DNA from: Blastococcus sp. CT_GayMR16
GTDB taxonomy: Bacteria; Actinomycetota; Actinomycetes; Mycobacteriales; Geodermatophilaceae
Length of the DNA stretch: 64,000 nucleotides
Direction: 5' to 3'
Assembly (NCBI RefSeq): GCF_004570875.1
Contig: NZ_SPQK01000011.1
Span: forward strand, 62,001 to 126,000
Numbering within the stretch: position 1 is the first letter of the stretch; each line of letters starts with the position of its first letter. This document shows, in pieces, positions 1-14,979 of this stretch. A model generated the notes under the pieces. The model saw only the letters and a program-made list of their open reading frames with translations, did not search any database and was not told the origin of the DNA. Position numbers and translations under genes: made by a program.

Positions 1-1130
1 CCTGTCCGGTCGGCGTCGCCACCCAGAACCCGGAGCTGCGCAAGCGGTTCACCGGCACGCCGGAGTTCGTCGTCACCTTCTTCGAGTTCCTGGCCGAGCA
101 GGTGCGCACCTACCTGGCCGAGCTGGGCTTCCGGACGATCGACGAGGCCATCGGCCACGCCGAGCTGCTCGACACCCGCAAGGCGGTCGGGCACTGGAAG
201 GCCGAGGGCCTGGACCTCTCGCCGATGCTGGTCGTGCCCGAGCTGCCCGAGGGGGCGCCGCTGCGCCGCGTGAAGTCCCAGGACCACGGGCTCGACATCG
301 CCCTCGACCAGACCCTGATCCAGCTCTGCGAGGGTGCGCTGCTGGACGCGCGGCCGGTCAGCCTGGAGCTGCCCGTCCGCAACGTCAATCGCACGGTCGG
401 GACGATGCTGGGCTCGATGGTCACCCGTCGCTTCGGCGGGGAGGGTCTGCCCGACGGCACGATCGACCTGACCTTCGGCGGGTCCGCCGGTCAGTCGTTC
501 GGCGCCTTCCTGCCGCGGGGCATCACGATGCGGCTCTACGGGGACGCCAACGACTACGTCGGCAAGGGCCTCTCCGGTGGCCGGATCGTCGTCCGGCCGT
601 CGCGCGAGGCGCCGTTCGCGGCGGAGGACAACGTCATCGCCGGCAACGTCATCGGCTACGGCGCGACCGGGGGCGAGATCTTCCTCCGCGGCCGGGTCGG
701 CGAGCGGTTCTGCGTGCGCAACTCCGGTGCCCTGGCCGTCGTGGAGGGCGTGGGCGACCACGCGCTCGAGTACATGACCGGTGGCCGCGCGGTGATCCTC
801 GGCGCGACCGGGCGGAACATCGCGGCCGGGATGTCGGGCGGCATCGGCTACGTGCTCGAGCTGGCCCGCCACCGGGTGAACTCCGAGATGGTCGACGTCG
901 AGCCGCTGGACGGCGAGTCGGCCCAGTGGCTGCGCGACGTCCTCGTGCGGTACGCCGCCGACACCGAGTCGACGGTGGCGCACGCGCTGCTGGCCGACTG
1001 GGGCCGCTGGTCGGAGCAGTTCAGCGTGATCATCCCGCGCGACTACCGGCGCGCGCTGGACGCCCAGCGGATGGCCGAGGCCAACGGAACAGATGTGGAT
1101 CTCGCCGTGATGGAGGCAGCTCGTGGCTGA
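1..1130 (+). CDS. gltB: Glutamate synthase large subunit, C-terminal part (5' end outside window)
   Basis: The open frame runs from base 3 to the TGA at 1128-1130 with no start in the window, so this is the last 375 residues of a protein of about 1500. It begins with the family motif CPVGVATQ, the end of the FMN/3Fe-4S synthase domain. It then enters the C-terminal right-handed beta-helix (GXGXG domain), visible as repeated glycine motifs such as [23 protein letters not shown] and [11 protein letters not shown]. GltB makes two glutamates from glutamine and 2-oxoglutarate in the cytoplasm, with electrons delivered by GltD, which is encoded next. The start at base 102 is internal. Identification is secure from motif and neighbour. 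Confidence 0.97.
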
Positions 1131-1194
1131 CACGCGGCACCCGACCGAACGGCTCACGGAGCTCGCGCAGAAGGAGGCAGCTCGTGGCTGACAC
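1112..1194 (+). repeat. 22-bp direct repeat duplicating the gltD translation start region
   Basis: The same 22 bases (starting GGAGGCAGCTCGTGGCTGAC) occur at 1112-1133 and 1173-1194, 61 bp apart. Each copy carries a GGAGG-like site and GTGGCTGAC. The first copy holds the gltB stop. The second holds the real gltD start at 1184. The upstream GTG (1123) opens a 22-codon frame that stops at 1191, and it is out of frame with gltD. Confidence 0.85.
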
Positions 1195-2683
1195 CACTGG
1201 ATTCCTGAAGTTCGACCGCGAGCTGCCGCCGCGCCGTCCCGTCGAGGTCCGGATCCGGGACTGGAAGGACGTCTACGTCGCCCGGCAGAACGGCGAGGAC
1301 CCGCTGTTCCCGACGGCCGAGGTGCGCAAGCAGGCTGCCCGTTGCATGGACTGCGGCATCCCGTTCTGCCACCACGCGTGCCCCGTGGCCAACCTGATCC
1401 CGGAGTGGAACGACCTCGCCCGCCGGGACGACTGGCACGACGCGATCGAGCGGCTGCACTCGACGAACAACTTCCCGGAGTTCACCGGGAAGCTCTGCCC
1501 TGCTCCGTGCGAGGGCTCCTGCGTGCTGAACCTGCAGGAGGCGCCCGTCACGATCAAGCAGATCGAGTGGGAGATCATCGACCGCGCCTACGACGAGGGC
1601 TGGGTCGAGCCGCAGACCCCGACCGAGCGGACCGGCCGGAAAGTCGCCGTCGTCGGCTCCGGGCCCGCCGGGCTCGCGGCTGCCCAGCAGCTCACCCGCG
1701 CCGGGCACGACGTCACCGTCTACGAGCGGGCCGACCGCATCGGTGGCCTGCTCCGCTACGGGATCCCCGAGTTCAAGATGGAGAAGGCCGTGCTCGACCG
1801 GCGGCTGGACCAGATGCGCGCCGAGGGCACGCGCTTCGTCACCGGCGTCGACGTCGGCGGCAGCAAGGACGGCGACCTGTCGGCCGAGCAGCTGCGGGCG
1901 GACTTCGAGGCCGTCGTCCTCGCCGGGGGTGCGACCGTCGGCCGTGACCTGCCCGCTCCGGGCCGCGACCTCACGGGCATCCACCTGGCCATGGAGTACC
2001 TGCCCTACGGCAACCTCCAGGCGCTGGGCGAGCTCGACGACCCGCCGATCAACGCGCGCGGCCAGCACGTCGTGATCATCGGTGGGGGCGACACCGGCGC
2101 CGACTGCCTCGGCACCGCGCACCGGCAGGGCGCCGCCTCGGTGACCCAGCTGGAGATCATGCCGACGCCGCCGGACCGCCGGGCCGAGACCAACCCGTGG
2201 CCCACCTACCCGATGATCATGCGCGTCTCCAGCGCGCACGAGGAGGGTGGCGAGCGGCTCTACTCGGTCAACACCGAGCGCTTCCTCGGTCATGAGGAGG
2301 GCCCCGCCCACGGCCGGGTGCGGGCGCTGCTCCTGCACGAGGTCGAGATGGTCGAGGGGCGCTTCACCAAGATCGAGGGCACCGAGCGCGAGGTCCCGGC
2401 CGACCTGGTCTTCCTGGCCATGGGCTTCACCGGGGCTCAGCGCGAGGGCCTGATCGACGCACTCGGCGTGCAGGTCGACGGGCGCGGCAACGTGGCGCGC
2501 GACGAGCAGTTCATGTCCACCGAGCCGGGCGTCTTCGTGGCCGGCGACATCGGCCGCGGGCAGTCGCTGATCGTCTGGGCGATCGCGGAGGGGCGCGCGG
2601 CGGCCGCTGCGGCGGACACCTTCCTGACCGGCGGTTCCGACCTGCCGCGGCCCGTCGCACCGACGGCGGTCGCGCTCCGCTAG
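1184..2683 (+). CDS. gltD: Glutamate synthase small subunit (NADPH-dependent)
   Basis: A 499-residue protein of normal length for the family. An N-terminal cysteine cluster (CMDCGIPFCHHAC, about residues 54-66) ligands the 4Fe-4S centres. A first dinucleotide fold (VVGSGPAGLAAA, near 155) binds FAD, and a second (IIGGGDTGADC, near 298) binds NADPH. The subunit oxidises NADPH and passes electrons to GltB. The GTG at 1184 is chosen because it follows AAGGAGG at 1171-1177 and gives the usual N-terminus; the frame stays open further upstream inside gltB, but that sequence is the gltB shadow. The gap to gltB is 53 bp, so the two form an operon. Confidence 0.96.
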   Translation: MADTTGFLKFDRELPPRRPVEVRIRDWKDVYVARQNGEDPLFPTAEVRKQAARCMDCGIPFCHHACPVANLIPEWNDLARRDDWHDAIERLHSTNNFPEFTGKLCPAPCEGSCVLNLQEAPVTIKQIEWEIIDRAYDEGWVEPQTPTERTGRKVAVVGSGPAGLAAAQQLTRAGHDVTVYERADRIGGLLRYGIPEFKMEKAVLDRRLDQMRAEGTRFVTGVDVGGSKDGDLSAEQLRADFEAVVLAGGATVGRDLPAPGRDLTGIHLAMEYLPYGNLQALGELDDPPINARGQHVVIIGGGDTGADCLGTAHRQGAASVTQLEIMPTPPDRRAETNPWPTYPMIMRVSSAHEEGGERLYSVNTERFLGHEEGPAHGRVRALLLHEVEMVEGRFTKIEGTEREVPADLVFLAMGFTGAQREGLIDALGVQVDGRGNVARDEQFMSTEPGVFVAGDIGRGQSLIVWAIAEGRAAAAAADTFLTGGSDLPRPVAPTAVALR

Positions 2684-2686
2684 GAG

Positions 2687-2742
2687 AAGGACCCCGTCCT
2701 CCTCACCCCTCGCAGGCTCGGGGCGAGCCTCTGGACGGGGCC
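2687..2742 (+). repeat. Family-1 hairpin repeat, copy A
   Basis: Begins AAGGACC three bases after the gltD stop. The outer stem is CCCCGTCC/GGACGGGG around a loop with CACCCCTCGCAGGCTCGG. It matches the copies at 5081, 32905 (inverted) and 36976 in layout and loop sequence, while the stem bases differ in a paired way. It probably acts as a terminator-like structure for gltBD; there is no T-run. Confidence 0.75.
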
Positions 2743-2791
2743 GGGCGGGGCGCGTCGGCCAGAAGTTCGGCTGCCCATTAGCGTTATCGCC

Positions 2792-4210
2792 ATGTCCCGC
2801 CGCGCCAAGATCGTCTGCACCCTCGGGCCGGCGACCAGCTCCCTCGAGCAGGTCACCGCCCTCGTCGAGTCCGGGATGGACGTGGCCCGGCTGAACTTCA
2901 GCCACGGGGCGCACGCCCACCACGCCACCGCCTACGAGCGGGTCCGGGCCGCCTCCGACAGCACCGGCCACGCGGTCGCCGTCCTGGCCGACCTGCAGGG
3001 GCCGAAGATCCGGCTCGGCACTTTCGCCGACGGCCCGGTCACCTGGGCGACCGGCGCCCAGGTCTGCATCACCGTCGAGGACGTGCCCGGCACCGCCGAG
3101 CGGGTGTCCACCACCTACAAGGGCCTGGCCGACGACGTCGTCGTCGGCGACCGGCTGCTCGTGGACGACGGGAAGCTCGCCCTGACGGTGGTCCGCGTCG
3201 AGGGTCCCGACGTGTTCTGCCTGGTCGTCGAGGGCGGGGAGGTGTCCAACAACAAGGGGCTGTCCCTGCCCGGCGTCGCGGTCAGCGTGCCCGCCCTCTC
3301 GGACAAGGACGAGGAGGATCTCCGCTTCGCGCTGCACCTCGGCGTGGACTTCATCGCGCTGTCCTTCGTCCGCTCCGCCGATGACGCCGAACTCGTCCGC
3401 GACATCATGCGGCAGGAGGACATCTACGTCCCCGTCATCGCGAAGCTGGAGAAGCCCGAGGCGGTCGAGAACCTCGAGGCCATCGTCGAGGCGTTCGACG
3501 CGATCATGGTGGCCCGCGGTGACCTCGGGGTGGAGCTGGCACTGGAGCAGGTGCCGCTGGTGCAGAAGCGCGCGATCCAGGCAGCCCGCGAGCGGAACAA
3601 GCCGGTCATCGTGGCCACCCAGATGCTCGAGTCGATGATCACGAACTCCCGGCCCACCCGCGCCGAGGCCTCCGACGTCGCCAACGCCGTCCTGGACGGC
3701 GCCGACGCGGTGATGCTGTCGGGGGAGACGTCGGTGGGTGCGCACCCGGTCGGCGCCGTCCGGACGATGGAACGGATCATCGACGCGGTCGAGAGCGACA
3801 CCACCATCTCCGTGCCGGACGTCGTGCGCCGGTCGCGGTCTCGCTCTGGTGCGATCGTTCGGGCTGCCAAGGACGTGGGCGAGGCGCTCGAGGTCAAGGC
3901 GCTGGCCACCTTCACGCAGACCGGCGAGACCGCCAAGCGGCTGGCCGCGCTGCACCCGCGCCAGCCCCTGCTGGCCTTCACCGTCGACGCCCGCGTGCGC
4001 AGCCAGCTGGCGCTGTCGTGGGGCGTGGAGACGTTCCTGGTGCCCTCCGTGGAGCACACCGACGACATGGTGGCGCAGGTCGACTTCTCGCTGCTGTCGA
4101 TCGGCCGGCTCAAGGTCGGCGACCGGGTCGTGGTCGTGGCCGGCAGCCCGCCCAACACCGTCGGGTCCACGAACCTCATCCGCGTGCACGAGGTGGGCAC
4201 CGACTCGTGA
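2792..4210 (+). CDS. pyk: Pyruvate kinase
   Basis: 472 residues, the standard length. It transfers phosphate from phosphoenolpyruvate to ADP in the last step of glycolysis. Visible motifs are the N-terminal KIVCTLGP strand, RLNFSHG (substrate/K+ site), GPKIRLG, the catalytic lysine region VIAKLEKPEAVENL and the Mg-binding signature end MLSGETSVGAHP. The remaining C-terminal part forms the usual alpha/beta domain. The ATG at 2792 gives MSRRAKIVCTLGP, matching the family. The stop overlaps the thioesterase start (GTGA at 4207-4210), so the two are probably co-transcribed, as pykA and tesB1 are adjacent in mycobacteria. Confidence 0.97.
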   Translation: MSRRAKIVCTLGPATSSLEQVTALVESGMDVARLNFSHGAHAHHATAYERVRAASDSTGHAVAVLADLQGPKIRLGTFADGPVTWATGAQVCITVEDVPGTAERVSTTYKGLADDVVVGDRLLVDDGKLALTVVRVEGPDVFCLVVEGGEVSNNKGLSLPGVAVSVPALSDKDEEDLRFALHLGVDFIALSFVRSADDAELVRDIMRQEDIYVPVIAKLEKPEAVENLEAIVEAFDAIMVARGDLGVELALEQVPLVQKRAIQAARERNKPVIVATQMLESMITNSRPTRAEASDVANAVLDGADAVMLSGETSVGAHPVGAVRTMERIIDAVESDTTISVPDVVRRSRSRSGAIVRAAKDVGEALEVKALATFTQTGETAKRLAALHPRQPLLAFTVDARVRSQLALSWGVETFLVPSVEHTDDMVAQVDFSLLSIGRLKVGDRVVVVAGSPPNTVGSTNLIRVHEVGTDS

Positions 4211-5082
4211 GCGAGGGTGACAACCAGGCTGCGGCGCTGATGTGGGTGCTCGGGCTGGAGGAGCGCGACATCGACCTCTTCGTCGGGCAGACGCCGGAGA
4301 CCCGCACGCAGCGCATCTTCGGTGGGCAGGTCGCCGGGCAGGCGCTGATGGCCGCCTCCAGGACCCTGCCCGAGGAGCGCAGCGTGCACTCGCTGCACGC
4401 CTACTTCCTCCGCCCCGGTGACCCGACCGAGGAGATCCGCTACGCCGTCGACCGGATCCGGGACGGGCGCACGTTCAGCACGCGCCGGGTGCTCGCGATG
4501 CAGCGCCGCAACGGTGCCGACGTCGCGATCTTCGCCCTGACCGCGGATGCGTCGGCGGGGGAGCAGCCGGTCGTCGAGCACTCGCTGCCGATCCCCGACG
4601 TGCCACGGCCGGAGGAGCTGCCGTCACTGCAGGAGCTCGTCGCGCCCTACGGGAAGCGGGCGGCCGTGGCCATGTCGATCAGCCGGGCGGTTGAGCAGCG
4701 ACTGCTCGAGGACCCGTTCGACCGCCGACCGAAGAGCCCGCCGGACACCAGCTCCTGGGCGTGGATGCGGGTCGCGGGGCGCCTGCCGCCGGAGCAGGCG
4801 GTGCACCGCGCGGCGCTGACCTTCGTCAGCGACCTCTCGCTCCTGTCGGCGGGTCTGGCGCGGATCGGCGGCGGCCTGGGTGGGGACTACGCCGGCTCGA
4901 GCCTCGACCACGCCGTGTGGTTTCACCAGCCGGTCCGCGCCGACGAGTGGTTCCTCTACCAGATCGACAGCCCCGCGGCGTCGGCCGGCCGTGCGCTCTG
5001 CTTCGGCCAGATCTGGGCGGCCGACGGCACCCACGTGGCCACGGTCGCCCAGCAGGGCCTCATCCGGCCGATGTCGGCGTAA
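4207..5082 (+). CDS. tesB: Acyl-CoA thioesterase II (TesB family)
   Basis: 291 residues forming a double hotdog fold. It hydrolyses acyl-CoA to free fatty acid and CoA in the cytoplasm. Family marks are RIFGGQVAGQAL near residue 37, HSLHAYFLRPGDP near 60, FSTRRVLAMQ, and SLDHAVWFHQPVRADEW near 237 with the conserved Asp of the active site. The GTG at 4207 is chosen because it overlaps the pyk stop by four bases and yields a normal N-terminus. The TAA stop at 5080 runs directly into repeat copy B. Pairing with pyk is conserved in actinobacteria. Confidence 0.94.
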   Translation: MSEGDNQAAALMWVLGLEERDIDLFVGQTPETRTQRIFGGQVAGQALMAASRTLPEERSVHSLHAYFLRPGDPTEEIRYAVDRIRDGRTFSTRRVLAMQRRNGADVAIFALTADASAGEQPVVEHSLPIPDVPRPEELPSLQELVAPYGKRAAVAMSISRAVEQRLLEDPFDRRPKSPPDTSSWAWMRVAGRLPPEQAVHRAALTFVSDLSLLSAGLARIGGGLGGDYAGSSLDHAVWFHQPVRADEWFLYQIDSPAASAGRALCFGQIWAADGTHVATVAQQGLIRPMSA

Positions 5083-5137
5083 GGACCCCTCTGCCCCCAC
5101 CGCTCACAAGCTCGCGGCGGGCCCCTGCAGAGGGGCC
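5081..5137 (+). repeat. Family-1 hairpin repeat, copy B
   Basis: Starts inside the TAA stop of tesB (AAGGACC). The outer stem is CCCCTCTGC/GCAGAGGGG, with the loop core CCACCGCTCACAAGCTCGCG. Read on the minus strand, its second half encodes the last dozen residues and the stop of the PLP decarboxylase. It sits between convergent genes and could terminate both. Confidence 0.8.
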
Positions 5138-6720
5138 GGGATCGCGTGATCGGCGGAGCGTGCCTGCTCCGCAGCACGCTCCTGCTCCGCGGCGGCTCGG
5201 GCCTGCTCCGCAGCTGCGCGGTCGCGCTCCTCCTCGGCGGCGTGTTCGGCGGCCGCAGCGGCGAAGTCGGCGGCCAGCCAGTCGTGGCCCTCGCTGAGCA
5301 GCGCCCACACCCGCTCGACGTGCGCCCGGGTCGTGGCCGGCGAGCCGATGGCGACCCGCAGCACCGCCGTCCCGCCGACGTTCGTGTGGGTCAGGAACAC
5401 CTCGCCGCCGTCGTTAAGCCGCTCCAGGAGCGTCATCGTCGCGACGTCGGCGTCCACGTCGTCCGCCCAGACGGGGCGAAGGCAGACGAGCGACAGCGGG
5501 TGTGCGGTGGCCACCTCGAACCGCCCGTCGGCTGCGGCCCAGCCCGCCAGTTCCTGGGCCAGGGCGACGTGCGAGCGGATGTGGGCCCGCAGGCCCTCGG
5601 CGCCGTACCACCGCAGGACGAACCACAGCTTGAGGGCGCGGAACCGGCGGCCGAGCGGGATCTGCCAGTCGCGGAAGTCGACGACGGCCCCGGCGTCCGT
5701 GGCGGCGTTGCGCAGGTACTCCGGGAGGATCGACAGCGCTCCGGTGAGCGCGGCGCGGTCAGCGACCCAGAAGAGCGTCGCGTCGAAGCCGGTGAGCAGC
5801 CACTTGTGCGCGTCGGTCGTGTAGCTGTCGGCCCACTCGACGCCGGCCTGCAGTTCGCGGAGCTCGGGGACGACGGCGCTGACGCCGGCATAGGCCGCGT
5901 CGACGTGCAGCCAGACCCCGTACTTCTGGCAGATCGGGCCGAGCTCGGCCAGCGGGTCGACCGCGGTCGTCGACGTCGTCCCGACCGTGGCGCAGACCAG
6001 CACCGGCGTGTAGCCGCGGGCGACGTCCCGCTCGAGCCGGGCGGCGAGTGCCGCCGGGCGCATCGCCAGGTCGCCGTCCACCTCGACGACGCGGACGGCG
6101 TCGGTGCCCAGGCCCGCGATCCGCACGGCCTTCTCCATCGACGAGTGCGTCTCCGAGGAGACGTAGACCGTCGCCCGGTCGGGATCGACGCCCTGGCGGA
6201 GCGACGCGCCCGTGCTGGACCGGTGCAGGGCGGCCAGCAGGGCCACCAGGTTGGCGCCGGAGCTGGAGTCCTGGACGACGCCGCCGCCGGGTCCGTCGGA
6301 GCGGAAGGACGCCGGGAGGCCCAAGAGGTCGGCCAGCCAGTCCATGACGTGCTGCTCGAGCTCGGTGGCCGCGGGGCTGGTCACCCACGACATCCCCTGG
6401 ACCCCGAGCCCGGCGGAGACGAGGTCGCCGAGCACCGACGGCCCGGAGGTGTTCGCGGGGAAGTAGCCGAAGAAGCCGGGGTGCTGCCAGTGCGTGACGC
6501 CCGGGAGCACGACCCGGTCGAGGTCGGCGAGGACGGCGGAGAACGGCTCGCCCTGCTCCGGGGGAGCAGCCGGCAGGGAGGCACGGACCTCGCCGGGGGA
6601 GACCTGCGAGCGCACCGGAAGCGACCCGATCCGGGTCCAGTAGTCGGCGATCCAGTCGACGACCTCGTGCCCGTGCTGCCGGAACTGCTCGGGCGTCATG
6701 TGCGGAACAGGCTCGGTCAC
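5104..6720 (-). CDS. Pyridoxal-phosphate-dependent aromatic-L-amino-acid type decarboxylase
   Basis: About 538 residues, group II PLP decarboxylase fold. The PLP lysine lies in TDAHKWLLTGFDATLF. Other marks are HWQHPGFFGYFPAN near the N-terminus, SSGANLVALLAA, VYVSSETHSSMEKA and HVDAAYAGV. The family removes CO2 from aromatic amino acids (Trp, Tyr, Phe); the substrate here cannot be read. The C-terminus is an Ala/Glu/Arg-rich helical tail (AAAEQARAAAEQERAAEQ) followed by residues encoded by repeat copy B, so the terminal tail looks acquired. Start: the GTG at 6720 is preferred over longer options because the family begins near TPEQFRQHG; the ATG at 6699 is the alternative. No clear ribosome site is seen. 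Confidence 0.85.
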   Translation of the reverse strand: MTEPVPHMTPEQFRQHGHEVVDWIADYWTRIGSLPVRSQVSPGEVRASLPAAPPEQGEPFSAVLADLDRVVLPGVTHWQHPGFFGYFPANTSGPSVLGDLVSAGLGVQGMSWVTSPAATELEQHVMDWLADLLGLPASFRSDGPGGGVVQDSSSGANLVALLAALHRSSTGASLRQGVDPDRATVYVSSETHSSMEKAVRIAGLGTDAVRVVEVDGDLAMRPAALAARLERDVARGYTPVLVCATVGTTSTTAVDPLAELGPICQKYGVWLHVDAAYAGVSAVVPELRELQAGVEWADSYTTDAHKWLLTGFDATLFWVADRAALTGALSILPEYLRNAATDAGAVVDFRDWQIPLGRRFRALKLWFVLRWYGAEGLRAHIRSHVALAQELAGWAAADGRFEVATAHPLSLVCLRPVWADDVDADVATMTLLERLNDGGEVFLTHTNVGGTAVLRVAIGSPATTRAHVERVWALLSEGHDWLAADFAAAAAEHAAEEERDRAAAEQARAAAEQERAAEQARSADHAIPAPLQGPAASL

Positions 6721-6844
6721 GAGGGACACCGTATTGGGGGAAGCCACGGCGCAGCCGGGTGGACCAGGCGCGGGGGCCCGGAGGGTCTCCCGGCGGGGAC
6801 ACGAGTGGGGCTCAACGCAGCTGGGGAACGCCTCCTGGCCGCGG

Positions 6845-6897
6845 TGCGGTCCGGAGGACCGCAATGTGATGGCCGCGGTGTCGTCCGGAGGACGACA
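6845..6897 (-). terminator. Two tandem hairpins downstream of tRNA-Leu
   Basis: Perfect 8-bp stems with a 3-nt loop at 6845-6863 (TGCGGTCC GGA GGACCGCA) and 6879-6897 (TGTCGTCC GGA GGACGACA). They share the core TCCGGAGGA, but the outer stem bases differ in compensating pairs. On the minus strand they start 11 nt after the tRNA 3' end, so they are likely tandem transcript-end structures for tRNA-Leu. Confidence 0.6.
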
Positions 6898-6907
6898 AAT
6901 TACGCAG

Positions 6908-6981
6908 TGCCCCCGGTGCGACTCGAACGCACACTGCGCGGGTTTTGAATCCGCTCCCTCTGCCGATTGGGGTACGGGGGC
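6908..6981 (-). tRNA. leuX: tRNA-Leu (CAA), short variable loop
   Basis: A 74-nt cloverleaf on the minus strand: acceptor GCCCCCG/CGGGGGC plus A, T-loop TTCGAGT, anticodon loop TTCAAAA (anticodon CAA). The anticodon stem closes with an A-C mismatch. Leucine tRNAs normally have a long variable arm; this one is class I in length. A similar 74-nt leuX beside the Rv1626 orthologue is what I recall from mycobacteria, so the context fits. CCA is not encoded. Confidence 0.9.
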
Positions 6982-7045
6982 GAGCCGGAGTGACCGGCTG
7001 CCGCCCGAGCAGCCTAGCGGGGAGGTGCGGTGGCGCCGACGTCGC

Positions 7046-7051
7046 TAGGCT
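7046..7051 (+). promoter_or_regulatory. -10 hexamer TAGGCT for the ANTAR regulator, leaderless
   Basis: TAGGCT is followed by 7 nt and then the GTG start at 7059. This spacing places the transcription start at or next to the start codon. No Shine-Dalgarno site is present. Confidence 0.65.
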
Positions 7052-7058
7052 CCCGCTC

Positions 7059-7658
7059 GTGAGCAGCGAGACGATCCGGGTCCTCATCGCCGAGGACGAG
7101 GCGCTCATCCGCCTCGACCTCAAGGAAATGCTCGAAGAGGAGGGGTACTCCGTCGTCGCCGAGGTCGGTGACGGTCAGCAGGCCGTCGACCGGGCGAAGG
7201 AACTCAATCCCGACCTCGTCATCCTGGACATCCAGATGCCGGTCCTCGACGGGCTGTCGGCCGCCGAGCAGATCGCCACCGAGCGGATCGCCCCGGTCAT
7301 CGTGCTGACCGCCTTCAGCCAGCGCGAGCTGGTCGAGCGGGCGCGCGACGCCGGTGCGATGGCCTACCTGGTGAAGCCGTTCTCCAAGAACGACCTCGTG
7401 CCGGCGATCGAGGTCGCCCGCGCCCGCTTCGCGGAGATGACGGCCCTGGACGGCGAGGTGCGCACCCTCGAGGAGCGCCTGGAGACCCGAAAGATCGTCG
7501 AGAAGGCCAAGGGCCGGCTCATGGAGGATCAGGGCATCACCGAGGCCGAGGCGTTCCGCTGGATCCAGCGGACGGCGATGAACCAGCGCACGTCCATGAA
7601 AGCCCTGGCGCAGTCGATCCTCGAGCCCGACGGCGCGGCCGAGGGCACCTCCGCCTGA
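7059..7658 (+). CDS. pdtaR: ANTAR-domain response regulator (PdtaR / Rv1626 type)
   Basis: 199 residues. The receiver domain spans residues 6-120, with acidic pocket E12-D13, phospho-acceptor D57 in VILDIQMP and the conserved lysine in YLVKPFS. A coiled linker follows, then a C-terminal ANTAR domain (about 135-190, KAKGRLMEDQGITEAEAFRWIQRTA region) that binds paired RNA hairpins and works by antitermination. No sensor kinase lies beside it; in mycobacteria the partner PdtaS is encoded elsewhere. The GTG at 7059 is preferred over upstream in-frame starts because those would run through tRNA-Leu and because a -10 box sits 7 nt upstream. Confidence 0.93.
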   Translation: MSSETIRVLIAEDEALIRLDLKEMLEEEGYSVVAEVGDGQQAVDRAKELNPDLVILDIQMPVLDGLSAAEQIATERIAPVIVLTAFSQRELVERARDAGAMAYLVKPFSKNDLVPAIEVARARFAEMTALDGEVRTLEERLETRKIVEKAKGRLMEDQGITEAEAFRWIQRTAMNQRTSMKALAQSILEPDGAAEGTSA

Positions 7659-7890
7659 GCCTCCGCCGGGGCGCCCTCGACGGATCCGAGGCGGGTCCAC
7701 GGCGGCGATGACGGGGGCAAATCACCGGATTTTCGGCCTGATGACGCCAGATGGCCAGGTCACGACCTAATCACAGTGTGCGAGACGGTGGCTCCGGGTC
7801 CCGACCCAGCGGCTACGTTTCAGCGCACTGATGGGGCTCCGTCGGCATCTGCCTGGCGGGGCCGCGGAGCGAGGACTGGGAGTCTTGTTT

Positions 7891-9225
7891 ATGCGCACAG
7901 GCAATTTCGCCCGCGCGTTCAGCGTCTCTACTGTCGCCCTGCTCGCTGTCACCGCGTGTGGCAGCGACAGTGACGACAGCGGCGGCGGGAGCGACAGCGG
8001 CGGCAGCAACGAGGCCGTCACCAACATCTACGGCTCCGACGGCAACATGGGCAGCGCCCTCGGTGACCAGTTCACCGACAAGGGTGCCTTGGCCGGTATG
8101 AAGGGCACGACCCCGCTGACCGACCTGAGTGCGGACTTCAAGGAGCGTCTCGACGCTCTGAACCCCGACCTCGGCGGCACGTACAACTACGCGGGCGAGT
8201 CCTACGACGCGGTCGTGCTCGTTGCCCTGGCCGCTCAGTCGGCCGGCACCAACGACGCCACCGCATTCGCGCCCTACATCAACGGGCTGACCAGCGGCGG
8301 GGACACCTGCACCGACTTCGCCAGCTGCCTCGAGATCCTCAACGAGGGTGGCGACGTCGACTACGACGGCGCGTCGGGTCCGCTCAGCTTCTCCGACCCG
8401 GGCGAGCCCGCGGTGGCGAGCTTCGGCCTGCTGCAGTTCGGTGAGGACAACAAGATCGACGACTCGCTCACCGAGTTCCAGGTCGCCGGTGACGAGGCGC
8501 AGGCCGCCACCGACGCCGGTCCGGCTCCGGTGGCTCCCGGCGCGACGGGTGGCCCGCTGGTCGTCGGCACGCTGCTGCCACTGACCGGTTCGCTCGCCTT
8601 CCTCGGCCCGCCCGAGGTCGCCGGCGTCCAGCTGGCGGTCCAGGAGATCAACGCGGCCGGTGGCGCCCTCGGTGCCCCCGTCCAGCTGGTCGAGGGTGAC
8701 TCGGGCGACACGTCGACCGACACCGCCAACACGACGGTCGACCGCCTGCTGGCGGCCAACGTCAACGCGATCATCGGTGCCGCGTCGTCCTCGGTGAGCC
8801 TCACCGTGATCGACAAGATCGCCGCGGCCGGCGTCGTGCAGTTCTCGCCGGCGAACACCTCCGACCAGTTCACCACCTACAACGACTCGGGGCTGTACTT
8901 CCGCACGGCGCCCCCGGACGTGCTGCAGGCGGTGCCGCTGGCCGACCTGGTGCTCAGCGACGGGAACACGACGGTCGGGATCCTCAACCTCAACGACGCC
9001 TACGGCACGGGCCTGGCCAAGAACGTGGCCGCCAACCTGGTCGACGGTGGGCTGAACGAGGACGACATCCTGTCCATCACCTACGACCCGACGGCCTCGT
9101 CGTACGACACCGAGGTCCAGCAGATGGTCGAGTTCGGTCCCGACGCCATCGTCGTGATCGGCTTCGACGAGTCGGCTCGCATCATCCAGGAGCTCAACGC
9201 GCAGGGCATCGGCCCCGCACGTTGA
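7891..9225 (+). CDS. Branched-chain amino-acid ABC transporter binding lipoprotein with swapped halves (circularly permuted)
   Basis: 444 residues. A lipoprotein signal ends at VTAC (Cys23), followed by a Ser/Gly/Asp linker. Residues 43 to about 205 then resemble the C-terminal part of a LivJ/LivK-type protein (YGSDGNMGSALGDQF, GGTYNYAGESYDAVVL, VDYDGASGPLSFSDPGEP, FGLLQFGEDN). A Pro/Ala linker leads at about 220 into what is normally the N-terminal part (PLVVGTLLPLTGSLAFLGPP, INAAGGALGAPVQLVEGDSG, IIGAASSSVSLTVIDKIAAA, IIQELNAQGIGPA), and the protein ends there. In the usual order GIGPA is followed by a stretch like NIYGSDGN. The reading frame is intact and the lipobox is correct, so the protein may fold as a permuted binding protein. 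It faces the convergent livF-livG-livM-livH cluster and is presumably its ligand receptor. An assembly error is the alternative. Confidence 0.85.
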   Translation: MRTGNFARAFSVSTVALLAVTACGSDSDDSGGGSDSGGSNEAVTNIYGSDGNMGSALGDQFTDKGALAGMKGTTPLTDLSADFKERLDALNPDLGGTYNYAGESYDAVVLVALAAQSAGTNDATAFAPYINGLTSGGDTCTDFASCLEILNEGGDVDYDGASGPLSFSDPGEPAVASFGLLQFGEDNKIDDSLTEFQVAGDEAQAATDAGPAPVAPGATGGPLVVGTLLPLTGSLAFLGPPEVAGVQLAVQEINAAGGALGAPVQLVEGDSGDTSTDTANTTVDRLLAANVNAIIGAASSSVSLTVIDKIAAAGVVQFSPANTSDQFTTYNDSGLYFRTAPPDVLQAVPLADLVLSDGNTTVGILNLNDAYGTGLAKNVAANLVDGGLNEDDILSITYDPTASSYDTEVQQMVEFGPDAIVVIGFDESARIIQELNAQGIGPAR

Positions 9226-9263
9226 TCTCCTGACAGGTGATCGACTAGCTCCACCGCACTGAC

Positions 9264-9300
9264 GCAGCGGCCCGGCACCCTCGAGGTGCCGGGCCGCTGC
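9264..9300 (+). terminator. Strong hairpin terminator after the binding lipoprotein
   Basis: A 16-bp perfect stem (GCAGCGGCCCGGCACC and its complement) with a CTCGA loop, 38 nt after the stop. It is preceded at 9244-9254 by ACTAGCTCCAC, the same 11-mer that precedes the rpsA terminator. Confidence 0.8.
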
Positions 9301-9357
9301 TGCGTCTGCGGGGCATGACGTCCCACCCCTGTGTGGGGCGGCCCAGGACCCGCCGGA

Positions 9358-9402
9358 CACGACGACGCCGGCCCCCCGATGAAGGGGGAGCCGGCGTCGT
9401 GT
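9358..9402 (-). terminator. Hairpin terminator of the liv operon
   Basis: A long stem of GACGCCGGC plus a C-run against a G-run plus GCCGGCGTC, with a short GATGAA loop. It lies just beyond the livF stop on the minus strand and between convergent units, so it may work both ways. Confidence 0.7.
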
Positions 9403-9416
9403 GTACGCGGGTTCTG

Positions 9417-10271
9417 CTACTGCGCCTTGGCCAGCGTGCCCAGGTACAGCTCGATGACCTTGGGGTCGTGCATCAGCGACTCACCGGTGTCGGTGTAGGC
9501 GTTACGGCCCTGGTCGAGCACGTAGCCGCGGTCGCAGATCTGCAGGCATCGCCGGGCGTTCTGCTCGACCATGATGATCGAGACGCCGGTCGCGTTGATC
9601 CGCCGGCAGCGGATGAACACCTCGTCCTGGTAGGCGGGTGACAGCCCGGCCGACGGCTCGTCGAGCAGCAGCACCGAGGGGTCCATCATCAGGGCCCGGC
9701 CCATGGCCACCATCTGGCGTTCACCGCCGGACAGGGAGCCCGCCTTGCCCTTGCGCCGCTCACCGAGCAGCGGAAACAGGTCGACGACATAGTCGAACCG
9801 GTTCTCGAACGTCTTCGGCCGCAGGTAGACGCCCATCTGCATGTTCTCCTCGATCGTCAGCGAGGGGAACACGTTGTTGTTCTGCGGCACGTACCCGACG
9901 CCGAGAGAGACCAGACGGTGCGCCGGCGCGGAGGTGATGTTCTCCCCGCGGAGGGTCACCGTGCCCGAGCGAACCGGGATCAGCCCGAACAGCGCCTTGA
10001 GCAGCGTCGACTTACCGGCTCCGTTGGGTCCGATGATCCCGACCAGCTCGCCGTCTTGCAGGTAGAAGTCACAGCCGCGAAGGATGTTCACACCCGGCAG
10101 GTATCCGGCGACCAGCTCGTCGGCGCGCATGAGGGCGCCCTCGGCCAGCCCCACGTGGCCCTCGCGCGTCGCTGCCTTCTCGGCGGGGGAGAGCTCGGCC
10201 GAGGAGGCCGCCTCGTCGGCACGGGTGAGGTCTTCGCCGGTCTCGTCGACCTCGAACAGTGGGTCACTCAT
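9417..10271 (-). CDS. livF: ABC transporter ATP-binding protein, LivF type
   Basis: 284 residues. Walker A GPNGAGKST, Q-loop in GYVPQNNNVFP, signature LSGGERQ, Walker B VLLLDEPSAGL and the switch His replaced by Gln in the IIMVEQNARR segment, which is usual for LivF. It forms one of the two nucleotide-binding subunits that power uptake of branched-chain amino acids or related amides. The first ~48 residues are an acidic extension not needed for the ABC core, which starts at about RADELVAGY. Its start overlaps the livG stop (ATGA), and it is the last gene of livH-livM-livG-livF. Confidence 0.93.
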   Translation of the reverse strand: MSDPLFEVDETGEDLTRADEAASSAELSPAEKAATREGHVGLAEGALMRADELVAGYLPGVNILRGCDFYLQDGELVGIIGPNGAGKSTLLKALFGLIPVRSGTVTLRGENITSAPAHRLVSLGVGYVPQNNNVFPSLTIEENMQMGVYLRPKTFENRFDYVVDLFPLLGERRKGKAGSLSGGERQMVAMGRALMMDPSVLLLDEPSAGLSPAYQDEVFIRCRRINATGVSIIMVEQNARRCLQICDRGYVLDQGRNAYTDTGESLMHDPKVIELYLGTLAKAQ

Positions 10272-11338
10272 CGCTCGGTCCTCCGCGGTTCGTCCTTCTC
10301 GGAGCTGAGGATCTCGCCTTCGGCGTTCTCCTCGCGGGCGATCTCTCGCTCGGCCTGGGCCAGGACCTTGTCCTCCTCCTCGACGGTGAGGGGTGCGTCG
10401 TGGTGCGCGCCGAGGTAGGCGTCGACGACGGCCCGGTTCTGGCTGATCGACTCAGGCGGCCCCTCGGCGATGATCCGGCCCGCAGCCATGACCACCACCC
10501 AGTCGCTGATGTCCCGGACGACGTCCATGTCGTGCTCGACGAAGATGACGGTCATCCCCTGCTCGCGTAGGTCCTTCACGTGGCCGAGGAGGCTCTGGGT
10601 GAGGGCGGGGTTCACGCCGGCCATCGGCTCGTCGAGCATGACGACCTGCGGGTCGCTCATCAGCGCGCGCGCCATCTCCAGCAGCTTGCGCTGGCCGCCG
10701 GACAGGGTGCCGGCGAAGTCGTCCTTCTTCGCGTCGAGCTTGAACCGCCGGAGCAGGTCCATCGCCTTCTCGGTGTTCGCCTTCTCCTCGCCCCTCCAGA
10801 TGCCGGGGACGAGAGCCCGGAAGAAGCCCTCTCCCCGCTGGTCCTGCGCCCCGAGCAGCATGTTCTGCAGCACGGACAGCCTGGACAGGGCCTTGGTCAG
10901 CTGGAACGTCCGGACGACGCCCAGCCGGGCCACCTGGTGGGGGGACAGCTTGCCGAGCGACTTCCCGTCGAAGGACCACGTGCCCGTGTCGGGCTGGTCG
11001 AAGCCGGTCAGCAGGTTGAACAGGGTGGTCTTGCCGGCGCCGTTCGGGCCGATCAAACCGGTGATCCCGCCGCGCTGGATCTCCAGGTGGTCGACCGAGA
11101 CGGCGGTGAGACCGCCGAACGTCCGGGTGACACCGTCGACCACGACCGCGGGGTCGGGCTTGGCGACGCCGATCTCCCACGGCAGGTCCTTCAGCGCGGC
11201 CTGCGCGAGGCGCCGCGGGGCATCGCCGCTCTGGAAGGAGCCCTGCGCCCCGGGGTGGTAGCCGGAACCAGGCGCACCGGCTCCTGATGTGCCGGCGCCG
11301 GATGCGGTCGCGCCGGTCGGCTTCGGGTCAGCGGGCAT
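10268..11338 (-). CDS. livG: ABC transporter ATP-binding protein, LivG type
   Basis: 356 residues, about 100 longer than the family core. A Gly/Ala/Pro-rich N-terminal extension (~60 residues) precedes the ABC domain: Walker A GPNGAGKTT, signature LSGGQRK, Walker B VVMLDEPMAGVNP, and the H-loop in VIFVEHDMDVV. After the core is an acidic tail rich in Glu and Arg. It pairs with LivF under the LivH/LivM channel. Its 5' end overlaps the livM 3' end by 11 bp, indicating translational coupling. Both nucleotide-binding subunits of this transporter carry charged extra ends, which may be a feature of the lineage. Confidence 0.93.
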   Translation of the reverse strand: MPADPKPTGATASGAGTSGAGAPGSGYHPGAQGSFQSGDAPRRLAQAALKDLPWEIGVAKPDPAVVVDGVTRTFGGLTAVSVDHLEIQRGGITGLIGPNGAGKTTLFNLLTGFDQPDTGTWSFDGKSLGKLSPHQVARLGVVRTFQLTKALSRLSVLQNMLLGAQDQRGEGFFRALVPGIWRGEEKANTEKAMDLLRRFKLDAKKDDFAGTLSGGQRKLLEMARALMSDPQVVMLDEPMAGVNPALTQSLLGHVKDLREQGMTVIFVEHDMDVVRDISDWVVVMAAGRIIAEGPPESISQNRAVVDAYLGAHHDAPLTVEEEDKVLAQAEREIAREENAEGEILSSEKDEPRRTER

Positions 11339-12344
11339 CGAGCATCACCTCTCGTCGATCCCCGATGATCCCCTGCGGGCGGAAGATCATGAGGAACATG
11401 ATCCCGAGACCGATGATGATGAAGCGCGCGTAGGCGACATCGGTCTGGGAGAACACCTCGTTGATCTGGAAGAGGCCGAAGAACGTCCGGTCGTCCGACA
11501 GCAGCGCGGAGAGGGCGCTGTCGGAGAACGCGATGATGAACCAGAGCAGCATCGCGCCGATGATCGGCCCCAGCACCGTGGCCGCGCCGCCGAGGATGAG
11601 TGCGCCGTAGGCCAGGAACGTGTTCGCGTTCTGGTACTGGTCGGGCTGGGCGGAGCCGGTGCCGACGGCGTAGACCATGCCGCCGAGGGCGCCGAACAGA
11701 CCGCCGAGGACCAGGGACTGCATCTTGTACGAGTAGACGTTCTTGCCCAGCGCGCGCGCCGCGTCCTCGTCCTCACGGACCGCCCGGAGCACCCGTCCCC
11801 ACGGGCTGCGCATGAGCAGGAAGACGAGGACGGACGTGAGGATCACGAGCGTCCAGCCGACCGTGATGACCCAGAGCTCGCCGCCGTTCCAGCGCGTGCC
11901 GAGGATGTTGTAGCGGCCGCTGGTGCCCCACGGGGACAGCCTGAGGAAGCCGCCGTTGAAGGCGGAGATGCCCAGCGTGCTGTTGGTGATCGGCGTCGCG
12001 GACACCGACCGGAAGAGCAGCCGTAGCGCCTCCGCGGCCGCGATCGTGACGATCGCCAGATAGTCCGCGCGCAGCCGGAGGGTCGGGAGGCCCAGCAGGA
12101 GTGCCAGCACGACCGCCGCGAGCAGGCCGACCAGGACGCCGGCCCAGAACGGCAGGCCCCACTTCGACACCGAGATCGCGATGCCGAAACCGCCGAGCAT
12201 GGCGAAGGCGATCTGCCCGAAGTTGAGCAGCCCGGTGTAGCCGAAGTGCACGTTCAGGCCGATGGCGAGGAGGGCGAAGAAGATCGCCTGATAGGTGAAC
12301 ATCGCCCGCACTCCGAGTGCGAAGGCGTCGAGCAGATCACTCAT
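11328..12344 (-). CDS. livM: ABC transporter permease, LivM type
   Basis: 338 residues, very hydrophobic, with about eight to ten membrane spans. Family landmarks are HFGYTGLLNFGQIAFAMLGGFG near the N-terminus, the LRLRADYLAIVTIAAAEALR loop in the middle, and the cytoplasmic segment RAVREDEDAARALGKNVYSYK that contacts the ATPase subunits. It forms the transport channel with LivH. The ATG at 12344 lies 6 bp after the livH stop. The C-terminus reads RPQGIIGDRRE, as usual for the family. Confidence 0.93.
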   Translation of the reverse strand: MSDLLDAFALGVRAMFTYQAIFFALLAIGLNVHFGYTGLLNFGQIAFAMLGGFGIAISVSKWGLPFWAGVLVGLLAAVVLALLLGLPTLRLRADYLAIVTIAAAEALRLLFRSVSATPITNSTLGISAFNGGFLRLSPWGTSGRYNILGTRWNGGELWVITVGWTLVILTSVLVFLLMRSPWGRVLRAVREDEDAARALGKNVYSYKMQSLVLGGLFGALGGMVYAVGTGSAQPDQYQNANTFLAYGALILGGAATVLGPIIGAMLLWFIIAFSDSALSALLSDDRTFFGLFQINEVFSQTDVAYARFIIIGLGIMFLMIFRPQGIIGDRREVMLDAR

Positions 12345-12350
12345 GGAGGC

Positions 12351-13706
12351 TCACCCGATCCGCGCGCGGCTGCCCAGGATGCCCTGGGGCCGGATGATGA
12401 GAATGACGATCAGGAGGAGCAGCCCTCCGACGTACTTCACGTCGTCGGGGATCACGAGCGTCGACATCTGGACGAAGATGCCGACGATCACGCTGCCGAC
12501 CAGGGCGCCGTACGCCGTCCCGAGACCGCCGAGCGTGACACCGGCGAACATCAGCAGCAGCAGCCGGAACCCCATGTCCCACTGGACCTGGTCCGACAGC
12601 CCGAGCAGCACGCCACCGAGTGCAGCGAGCGCGCCACCCATCACCCAGACGACCAGGATGACGCGGTTGACGTCGATGCCCGACGAGGCGGCGAGGTCGC
12701 GGTTGTCGGCGACAGCTCGCATGGCCTTGCCGATCCGGGTCCGCTGGAGCATCACCGCGACCGCGACCAGCACGATCACCGAGATGATGATCGAGTAGAG
12801 GTCGCGGTCGGTGAGCGTGAGGATCCCGTAGTCCCGGGCCCGCTGCGACTGGTAGTCGATGTAGGCGTTGGACCGGCCGCCGTAGAAGGTCTGGATCAGG
12901 TACCGGGCGGCCAGCGAGAGGCCGATGGAGACGACCAGCGCGGCGACCAGGCCCGTACCCCGGCGGCGCAGGGGTCGCCACAGCCCGAGTTCGTTCAGCG
13001 CACCGACCAGGCCGCCTACGACGACGGCGATCAGTCCCGCGGCGATCAGTGGAACACCGTGGGAGTTGATGAAGAAGGCCACCACCGCACCGAGGGTGAC
13101 CAGCTCCCCGTGCGCGAAGTTGGTGAGCCCGGTCGTCCCGAAGATCAAGGAGAGGCCGACGGCGCACATGGCGATCAGCAGCCCGAAGCGCAGGCCGTCG
13201 ACGAAGAGCTGAATGGCGAGGATCCGCCCCGAGCCGCCGGTGGTCCCGTCGGTGAGACCGAAGTTCACCGGGAGCCGGCGCCCGGTCTCGACGGTCACGG
13301 TGCGGGTATCACCGGCCGAGCCGACGTCCACGCCCTCGGGGAGCGAGTCGGCGTCGAGGCTGACGACGTAGTCACCCGGCCCCGGCAGGTCGACCGCGAA
13401 CCGCCCCGCCTCGTCGGTCTCCACCGAGTCGATCTCGTCGCCGTCCGGCGTCTCCACCGTGATGGTGACGCCCTCGATCGGGCCGGACGCGCTCGTGGTG
13501 AGCGTGCCCCGGACCTGTTCGCCCTCCGCGTGGGCCACCCCGGGCCCTACGGTGGCCAGCGCAGCCGCGAAGGCGGCGATCAGCAGGGCGAGGATCAGGG
13601 GACGGCGCCCCCCGGGGCGGCCGGCTGCGAATGGTGCCGCAGGCAACAGGCTCCGGGCGCTGCGGCGGTCACCGCGCCGACCGGCACGGTTCAGCGCGTG
13701 CGTCAC
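12351..13706 (-). CDS. livH: ABC transporter permease LivH fused to an N-terminal secreted carboxypeptidase-regulatory-like domain
   Basis: 451 residues, where plain LivH is about 290-310. The protein starts with a basic stretch and a signal-like hydrophobic segment ending AHAEGEQ (near residue 60). A beta-sandwich of the CarboxypepD_reg / SpaA-like type follows (VRGTLTTSASGPIEGVTITV to RRLPVNFG, about 65-150). The LivH permease comes next, with FGTTGLTNFAHGELVTLGA and the coupling loop RAVADNRDLAASSGIDVNR. The GTG at 13706 follows a strong AAGGAGGT site 4 nt upstream. The extra domain would lie outside the membrane beside the binding lipoprotein, so a docking role is a plausible inference. 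It is the first gene of the liv operon. Confidence 0.9.
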   Translation of the reverse strand: MTHALNRAGRRGDRRSARSLLPAAPFAAGRPGGRRPLILALLIAAFAAALATVGPGVAHAEGEQVRGTLTTSASGPIEGVTITVETPDGDEIDSVETDEAGRFAVDLPGPGDYVVSLDADSLPEGVDVGSAGDTRTVTVETGRRLPVNFGLTDGTTGGSGRILAIQLFVDGLRFGLLIAMCAVGLSLIFGTTGLTNFAHGELVTLGAVVAFFINSHGVPLIAAGLIAVVVGGLVGALNELGLWRPLRRRGTGLVAALVVSIGLSLAARYLIQTFYGGRSNAYIDYQSQRARDYGILTLTDRDLYSIIISVIVLVAVAVMLQRTRIGKAMRAVADNRDLAASSGIDVNRVILVVWVMGGALAALGGVLLGLSDQVQWDMGFRLLLLMFAGVTLGGLGTAYGALVGSVIVGIFVQMSTLVIPDDVKYVGGLLLLIVILIIRPQGILGSRARIG

Positions 13707-13896
13707 TCGACCTCCTTGGCGTGTGGCTGGGGGTGGGACGTTAGCCCAGTTGTGTTCCAGGGCTGTCTCTCCGCACTGACCCGTGACCTTTCCGGGACAC
13801 GCCGTTGTGGTAACAGCCTGTGTCCGTTCGGCGCGTCGTCGTGATCACGGCAGCTCAGGGGTGCAGTCTCCACGCACCGTCCAGGGGAGGACTCCT

Positions 13897-14523
13897 GTGT
13901 CAGGAACCGGTTCACGGTCTCGTGTAGTGACGCGCACCGCGCGTGCCGCTGACCTGCCCGCCGTGCTCGCGCTCGTCCGGCAGCACCGTGCCGACGCGCA
14001 CGCCGAGGACGTCCTCACCGGCCACACCCGGCTGAACGCGGCCGCGTCCGGGTTCCGCCGGCTACTCGACGACCCCGGGCACCGCGTCGTCCTCGCCGTC
14101 CTTCCGGGGCCCCATGCCGCCACGGCGGACGCCTCCGGTGAGGTGGCCGTCGGCCTCGCCGTCCTGGGGCTGGACCCGTTGTCCCTGGTGCTGGGCAACC
14201 CGCAGGTCACCGTGGACACCTTCGTCGTCGACCGGGAGCACCGGCGACAGGGCGCCGGCGTGCTGCTGCTCGCCGCCGCGGCTGCCTACGCGCAAGAGGC
14301 CGGCGCGGCCTACGTCGTGGCGTCGGTCGGCGGACACGAGGCCGAGCGGCAGCGGTTCTTCGCGCGCATGGGCTTCGCCCCGCTGACCACACGCCGCATC
14401 GTCAGCGTCGACTCCCTGACGCGGGCGCTCGTGTCGTGGCAGCGCCGCGGTGTGCCGCTGCCCGTCCCGCGGCGTGCCGCGGCGGTCCGCCGCCGGCCGA
14501 TGGCGCGGGGGCTGTCGGCCTGA
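13897..14523 (+). CDS. GNAT-family N-acetyltransferase
   Basis: 208 residues. The acetyl-CoA binding motif A is visible as VDTFVVDREHRRQGAGVLLLAAAAAYA, followed by the helix-strand VASVGGHEAERQRFFARMGFAPL typical of the GCN5 fold. The C-terminus is rich in Pro and Arg. The substrate is unknown. The start is GTG 13897, chosen because GGGGAGG at 13884-13890 sits 6 nt upstream. The gene stands alone, divergent from livH and convergent with the hotdog thioesterase, with only 6 bp between the two stop codons. Confidence 0.85.
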   Translation: MSGTGSRSRVVTRTARAADLPAVLALVRQHRADAHAEDVLTGHTRLNAAASGFRRLLDDPGHRVVLAVLPGPHAATADASGEVAVGLAVLGLDPLSLVLGNPQVTVDTFVVDREHRRQGAGVLLLAAAAAYAQEAGAAYVVASVGGHEAERQRFFARMGFAPLTTRRIVSVDSLTRALVSWQRRGVPLPVPRRAAAVRRRPMARGLSA

Positions 14524-14529
14524 GCCCGC

Positions 14530-14934
14530 TCAGGCCGGCAGGATCATGCAGGTCAGGCGTCCGCTGGCGGTCAGCTGGTCCTGGTCGTCGGTGACCTGGA
14601 TGAGGAAGGTGGCGAGGCTGCGGCCTCGGCGCACCGGCGTGCAGACCGCGGTCACCACCCCGGAGGTCGCTGCCTTCACGTAGCTGGCGTTCAGCTCGAT
14701 GCCGACCGCCTTGCGGCCCTCGCCGGCGCCGAGCATGGCCGCCCACGACCCGATCGACTCCATCAGCGCGCACGTGGCCCCGCCGTGCAGCAGGCCGAAC
14801 GGCTGCTGGTTGCCCTCCACCGGCATGGTCGCGACGAGCCGGTCGGGATCGAAGTCGAGAATCCGGATGCCGAGCTTGTCGTCGAGCGGACCGAAGGTGT
14901 CCGTCGGCGCCCAGGGCGGCGGTGGGGTCGTCAC
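14530..14934 (-). CDS. PaaI-family hotdog thioesterase
   Basis: 134 residues, a single hotdog domain. The family signature GLLHGGATCALMESIGSWAA contains the catalytic region, followed by GIELNASYVKAATSGVVTAV. It likely hydrolyses small acyl- or aryl-CoA thioesters; the substrate is unknown. The GTG at 14934 is preferred because TACCGT (a -10 hexamer) stands 6 nt upstream, giving a leaderless mRNA; the longer version from 14964 would include the promoter. It is divergent from polA with a very short shared promoter region. Confidence 0.88.
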   Translation of the reverse strand: MTTPPPPWAPTDTFGPLDDKLGIRILDFDPDRLVATMPVEGNQQPFGLLHGGATCALMESIGSWAAMLGAGEGRKAVGIELNASYVKAATSGVVTAVCTPVRRGRSLATFLIQVTDDQDQLTASGRLTCMILPA

Positions 14935-14940
14935 GAGGGC

Positions 14941-14946
14941 ACGGTA
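14941..14946 (-). promoter_or_regulatory. -10 hexamer TACCGT for the hotdog thioesterase, leaderless
   Basis: Read on the minus strand, TACCGT is followed by 6 nt and then the GTG at 14934. It is back to back with the polA promoter 20 bp away. Confidence 0.6.
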
Positions 14947-14965
14947 ACCAGTCAGCACCCGCACA

Positions 14966-14971
14966 TAGGAT
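14966..14971 (+). promoter_or_regulatory. -10 hexamer TAGGAT for polA
   Basis: TAGGAT is followed by 8 nt and then the polA ATG at 14980, so the transcript probably starts within a base or two of the start codon. No ribosome binding site is present. Confidence 0.6.
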
Positions 14972-14979
14972 CGGACCCG

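Follow-up and report, generated by a model that had tools for sequence, protein, structure and literature searches.

Natural circular permutations are usually regarded as ancient, one-off events that set distantly related proteins apart. Among substrate-binding proteins (SBPs), permuted members exist in cluster F (OpuAC/ChoX). The type I fold has its own example in TpMglB-2 (Tp0684) and the 'Type Ic / Cluster Bc' glucose-binding lipoproteins, described as naturally permuted, with a fourth crossover reported for TpMglB-2 (Brautigam 2016, PMC4990184). In that protein, the first three strands of the N-lobe have moved to the C terminus and the order of the C-lobe is intact (PMC4990184). Beyond binding proteins, transhydrogenases and DNA methyltransferases have independently acquired chain orders, for which duplication and fission-fusion models are discussed (PMC3320104). 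A permuted type I SBP as such has therefore already been published, and the surprising part of the present case is the apparent recurrence of permutation at a single locus. In the open PMC literature, neither permuted LivJ-type proteins nor recurrent permutation at one locus were found, subscription papers lying mostly outside this search.

Chain order of the window binding protein

The gene under study lies in a 64,000-nucleotide stretch of Blastococcus sp. CT_GayMR16, the whole of which is referred to here as the window. The gene, its parts, and its neighbors are as follows.

7891..9225, + strand: permuted type I substrate-binding lipoprotein (SBP), whole gene including the stop, 444 aa
7891..7959, + strand: signal peptide and lipobox by sequence reading, Cys23 at 7957-7959
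7960..8016, + strand: Ser/Gly-rich spacer between lipid anchor and new N-terminal strand (pLDDT <50 over most of residues 1-40)
8017..8505, + strand: block A, residues 43-205, the C-terminal part of the ordinary protein (after block B in native orthologs)
8506..8541, + strand: linker from the old C terminus to the old N terminus, ordered in the model
8542..9222, + strand: block B, residues 218-444, the N-terminal part of the ordinary protein, ending ...GIGPAR
7038..7658, + strand: response regulator with ANTAR domain, upstream of the SBP (Response_reg and ANTAR, Pfam)
9417..10271, - strand: LivF-type ATPase, convergent with the SBP (ABC_tran; conserved neighbor)
10268..11338, - strand: LivG-type ATPase (ABC_tran and BCA_ABC_TP_C)
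11328..12344, - strand: LivM-type permease (BPD_transp_2)
12351..13706, - strand: LivH-type permease with an N-terminal CarboxypepD_reg domain (PF13620 at 63-150, BPD_transp_2 at 168-433)

Sequence comparison confirms that the window protein is a LivJ-like type I binding lipoprotein in circularly permuted form. Against Peripla_BP_6 (PF13458; cut-off, 31.7) it scores 123.5 bits in two matched stretches that cover both halves, and the best stretch aligns residues 223-442 with profile positions 2-217, so that the start of the family profile falls in the second block of the protein. In L115, an ortholog of native order, a single run (residues 90-403) covers positions 2-314 of this profile. A PDB search with a profile built from 50 permuted proteins placed residues 219-440 on residues 5-222 of Streptococcus pneumoniae LivJ (4gnr) and, as a weak second piece of 7.8 bits, residues 50-133 on residues 229-320. 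The homology of block A is settled by eight native orthologs of family f8, in which the corresponding segment, 50-53% identical (138-147 bits, a similarity well past anything expected by chance), is placed after the other block. The ordinary chain order, with lobe 1 first, is not that of the window protein. Profile tools that keep residue order split such proteins or score half of each; the LivJ-type NCBIfam model NF011933 matched only residues 225-388, at 58.7 bits, far below its cut-off of 477, so no ligand name is drawn from that model.

The lipobox reads ...LLAVTAC with Cys23, and together with the signal peptide it predicts a secreted, lipidated protein. A lipobox-like motif precedes the first block in all 115 proteins assigned to the first of two cut sites (site 1, below) by regular expression, with a Cys-to-Tyr spacing of 16-50. 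Block A opens with VTNIYGSDGN, the YGSDGN strand standing at its start, and block B begins ATGGPLVVGTLLP. D50, G51, and N52 are invariant across 11 permuted proteins (Asp50 codon, 8038-8040), and the position of Asp50 in LivJ presumably faces the amino group of the ligand.

These results bear out most of what the first-pass annotation had read from the gene. The open reading frame, signal, and lipobox that it called correct are there on reading the sequence; the swapped blocks are seen in the Peripla_BP_6 registers, in the single run of L115, and in the opposite order of the f8 native orthologs; and the profile matches and native orthologs likewise support clean junctions and a genuine permutation. 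Its suggestion that a shared EA codon pair marks the rearrangement does not hold, as the joins in the near relative L034 read GED/VTN and DESMA/DTA. In the structure prediction that it had recommended for seeing whether a normal two-lobe fold forms, AlphaFold returned confident models for the window protein (pLDDT, 90.3; pTM, 0.87) and for a protein cut at the second site (pLDDT, 87.8; pTM, 0.86), and the linker region of the window model (residues 201-220; mean pLDDT, 91-92) is predicted to be ordered. Structure aligners matched block B and left block A without a match, a result that says nothing about block A itself; where block A belongs in the fold is thus argued from the orthologs and not from superposition.

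Conservation and surroundings of the permuted and native genes

A full-length, co-linear relative, 58-100% identical, was present in 92 of 112 genomes of the Geodermatophilaceae (family f1), with a partial relative in three further genomes (G066, G067, and G073) and none in the remaining 17. The permuted order occurs in named isolates of Goekera, Blastococcus, Modestobacter, Klenkia, Geodermatophilus, and Trujillonella, and at the same place also in single-contig assemblies. An assembly error, or a rearrangement of an ordinary LivJ gene peculiar to this strain, is refuted by this shared order and position in the 92 genomes and the named isolates; nothing was found in its favor, and it has next to no claim on the data. 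The recent, strain-level event that the first-pass annotation had envisaged likewise gives way to an old one. The annotation had named this order in all relatives as grounds for refuting it, and the outcome is divided: all Geodermatophilaceae orthologs found are permuted, whereas syntenic orthologs in other families are ordinary. Together these observations argue for an old rearrangement that has become fixed. NG86 dN/dS ratios of 0.23-0.49 for the window gene against five relatives fit purifying selection.

In the window genome, no native-order ortholog was detected, the four other matches being weak (E, 2.7e-8 to 2.5e-4) and confined to part of block B. A tblastn search of window positions 1-16000 with blocks A and B detected no remnant of a second copy beside the gene (best other hits, E of 0.40 and 1.6). 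In genus g8, four genomes (G075, G078, G082, and G083) carry a second permuted copy, 58-61% identical, beside a copy with 71-72% identity. Three Geodermatophilaceae genomes (L149, L150, and L151) have a native-order paralog, 36-45% identical per block, that ends a separate, co-directional livHMGF operon.

Outside the family, full-length co-linear relatives were found in at least 67 genomes of f16 (taken as Micromonosporaceae because named loci of Micromonospora, Asanoa, and Phytohabitans lie close to it), in 14 of 216 genomes of f41, in 3 of 119 genomes of the order containing f49, and in all 4 genomes of the order containing f39. Beyond the class of the window genome, Acidimicrobiia and Nitriliruptorales also have permuted genes. 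The scan of named relatives was run with a permuted query and comprised the best 80 of its 558 relatives, which biases it toward permuted genes.

The first 152 loci held 73 permuted and 61 native open reading frames, and both kinds shared the same surroundings, namely an ANTAR regulator, the SBP gene, a convergent LivF gene, and LivG, LivM, and LivH genes; because of these common surroundings, most of the permuted genes are positional orthologs of the native ones. At the one locus, several independent pairs of ordinary and permuted orthologs show 50-67% identity in each block. The conserved locus also carries tandem SBP copies, native in L133, L134, and L197 and permuted in L291. Upstream of the ANTAR regulator in the window, the frame at 5104-6864 (- strand) resembles, by eye, a pyridoxal phosphate (PLP)-dependent decarboxylase. 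The CarboxypepD_reg domain of the window LivH precedes the membrane part and could sit outside the membrane, close to the SBP.

Retention of the transporter, which the first-pass annotation had assumed, agrees with the LivFGMH genes adjoining the window SBP gene. Whether the permuted protein might instead have become a lipid-anchored sensor or scaffold, no longer serving import, was weighed against the wider set of loci. Among distinct loci with flanks, those with a convergent LivF gene (>50% identity) no more than 3 kb downstream number 53 of 60 for the native order, 60 of 80 for site 1, and 12 of 16 for site 2 (44/60, 41/80, and 11/16, respectively, at a stricter 700-base limit), and LivG, LivM, and LivH follow beyond it in most of the loci listed. 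This retention speaks against a sensor or scaffold. In its favor are the ANTAR regulator adjoining the SBP gene in many loci (among distinct loci with flanks, a same-strand neighbor in 59 of 80 for site 1, 30 of 60 for the native order, and 0 of 16 for site 2), an Acidimicrobiales frame in which an Hsp70 domain and a permuted SBP are fused, and the Micromonosporaceae copies that stand alone without liv genes. We consider such a change of role unlikely.

The solitary copies make up 15 of the 17 site-1 loci that have enough flank yet lack LivF. In these Micromonosporaceae loci (L094-L101, L288, L290, L292, L293, and L295-L297), the neighbors of the permuted SBP gene vary, and a Pfam search of nine open reading frames flanking orphan copies of Micromonosporaceae and Asanoa detected no transporter genes. 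Neither of the two Nitriliruptorales loci is arranged convergently, the liv genes of Salsipaludibacter lying upstream. The Hsp70-containing frame (L291:1031-4000, + strand; Acidimicrobiales MAG SJ307) has 990 codons, with the Hsp70 domain at 48-394, a site-2 permuted SBP at 750-985, and, by eye, a hydrophobic stretch between them; it adjoins the second permuted copy of that locus.

Cut sites and number of order changes

The permuted proteins are opened at two sites. Site 1 falls between GxGPxx-stop and xxxYxxDGN and is common to three separated groups: the proteins end two to four residues past GxGP (or its equivalent in f16) and start just ahead of the strand (I/L/V)Y-x-x-DGN. Site 2, found in Acidimicrobiia and Nitriliruptorales, lies about 20 residues downstream, the proteins ending after DGN(M/I)GNALGExF and starting ahead of LxGMKGT; L277 and one L291 copy lack the motif by which this cut is placed and were left out. 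Among 134 distinct permuted open reading frames, 115 were assigned to site 1 and 17 to site 2, and 2 with site-1-like ends were missed by the pattern. VIA-align put the site-1 end at about residue 220 and the site-2 end at about residue 241 of 3ipc/3ip5, both of which we take to lie in lobe 2. The linkers that join the old ends vary from group to group.

For the trees, every protein was re-registered to the ordinary order (block B and then block A), near-identical rows were thinned, and no root was imposed, so gains cannot be told from returns and both count as changes of chain order. An 82-row tree required four order changes, and a single permuted clade was rejected at a cost of 153 log units (AU p, 2.9e-5). 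An 87-row tree also required four, at least three of them forced by starred branches; in it, the 14 f41 permuted genes form one clade (99/95) nested in f41 natives (100/99), the f49 and f39 permuted genes stand together (100/98), and f1, f13, and f16 group with the f8 and f15 natives (98/96). Addition of the site-2 proteins, giving three orders, raised the count to five, with a single permuted clade again rejected (p, 1.4e-72), and addition of more distant natives, with L278 left out here and from one further tree because of an apparent frameshift, raised it to six. Block B alone gave four changes and block A alone gave six, three being forced in each. On these trees, then, the permuted proteins do not form one clade, and four to six order changes are required. 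The number of events behind f1, f13, and f16 is less clear: a single origin of the three is compatible with the data (AU p, 0.55), and with the f8 and f15 natives interspersed they could represent one gain or a gain followed by a return.

Alternatively, one permutation could have spread horizontally and then been overwritten by recombination with resident native genes until it looked native to each lineage. The opening of the same six-residue loop in three separated groups would be expected from such a history, as would the behavior of f49 and f39, which join in the whole-protein and block B trees and separate in the block A and LivF trees, as exchange would leave them. Because the block A and LivF trees disagree with block B, the history of f49 and f39 does appear mixed. 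However, both blocks of the f41 permuted genes fall within f41 (block B, 100/100; block A, 89/90), even though these genes form a weak single clade in block B (76/4) and no single clade in block A, and LivF proteins of native and permuted f41 loci form one clade (98/87). Overwriting both blocks while sparing the two joins would take many exact crossovers, the linkers vary between groups, and the second cut site demands an additional event regardless. We therefore regard transfer from a single origin as quite unlikely.

The permuted order could also be ancestral in Actinomycetota, with several native groups representing returns. This is compatible with the occurrence of permuted genes beyond the class, in Acidimicrobiia and Nitriliruptorales, and with an unrooted tree in which permuted groups lie on either side of the midpoint. 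Yet all 20 of the more distant loci fetched have the native order, the matched solved LivJ-type structures are native as well, and the f41 permuted genes are nested in natives; furthermore, each return would itself be a permutation, which leaves the event count no lower. An ancestral permuted order is accordingly unlikely. We conclude that the permutation is real and old, looks functional, and appears to recur.

A proposed model and its relation to known systems

The reading that we prefer, with a probability of about 0.82, is that the window gene encodes a functional permuted SBP of a LivFGMH-type importer, fixed in order within its family and representing one of several permutations that arose in situ. 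The export signal and lipobox would have been kept at the 5' end, so that the protein is exported and lipidated on Cys23. The chain would then start in lobe 2, a few residues ahead of the conserved Asp50, continue to the old C terminus, pass through the ordered linker from lobe 2 to the old N terminus in lobe 1, and end after the helix that formerly preceded the cut. As a consequence, the lipid tether, formerly on lobe 1, would now sit on lobe 2. The protein would still capture its ligand and hand it to LivHM in the usual way. The first-pass annotation had expected a rewired hinge, and this is right in part: a fourth lobe-to-lobe connection like that of TpMglB-2 would be added, and the usual three should persist, judging from type I topology and TpMglB-2. 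Each permutation possibly arose by tandem duplication followed by loss of the redundant ends. The tandem copies in L133, L134, L197, and L291 may agree with what permutation by duplication leads one to expect (PMC3320104); among the loci examined, none had a fused or half-duplicated gene that could be an intermediate.

More broadly, the syntenic SBP gene of Actinomycetota is probably a hot spot of circular permutation, with three chain orders, at least four to six in-place changes, and two adjacent loops opened. The fold would then behave as a closed ring in which the opening and the lipid tether can switch lobes while the transporter is kept, and the two opened loops would flank a strand and helix bearing the conserved ligand-side acid. 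Such a reshuffled locus amounts to a natural experiment in how protein chain order changes. Pairs of ordinary and permuted orthologs at one locus allow one to ask how the order changes (duplication, cut and paste, or exchange), why one loop was reopened repeatedly, and how an anchor on the other lobe affects ligand closure and docking.

In comparison with known systems, the window protein shares the Peripla_BP_6 family, the fold of block B, and an adjacent liv operon with LivJ/LivK (HAAT-type; 4gnr, 3ipc, and 1z15) and differs from them in chain order. Like transhydrogenases and DNA methyltransferases, the SBP family has more than one chain order (PMC3320104); in contrast to those families, its orders alternate at one syntenic gene, and no duplicated or split intermediate was seen. 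The closest parallel is TpMglB-2, also a permuted type I/cluster B, lipid-tethered SBP tied to an ABC importer (PMC4990184). Here, however, about 220 residues have moved and the cut lies at about residue 220 of 3ipc rather than in the N-lobe, the subfamily is different, and there are several apparent origins with old-order orthologs at the same locus. By analogy with what is described for TpMglB-2, the window protein would work like that protein without belonging to its group and is best regarded as a separate variant of the permuted type I binding lipoprotein.
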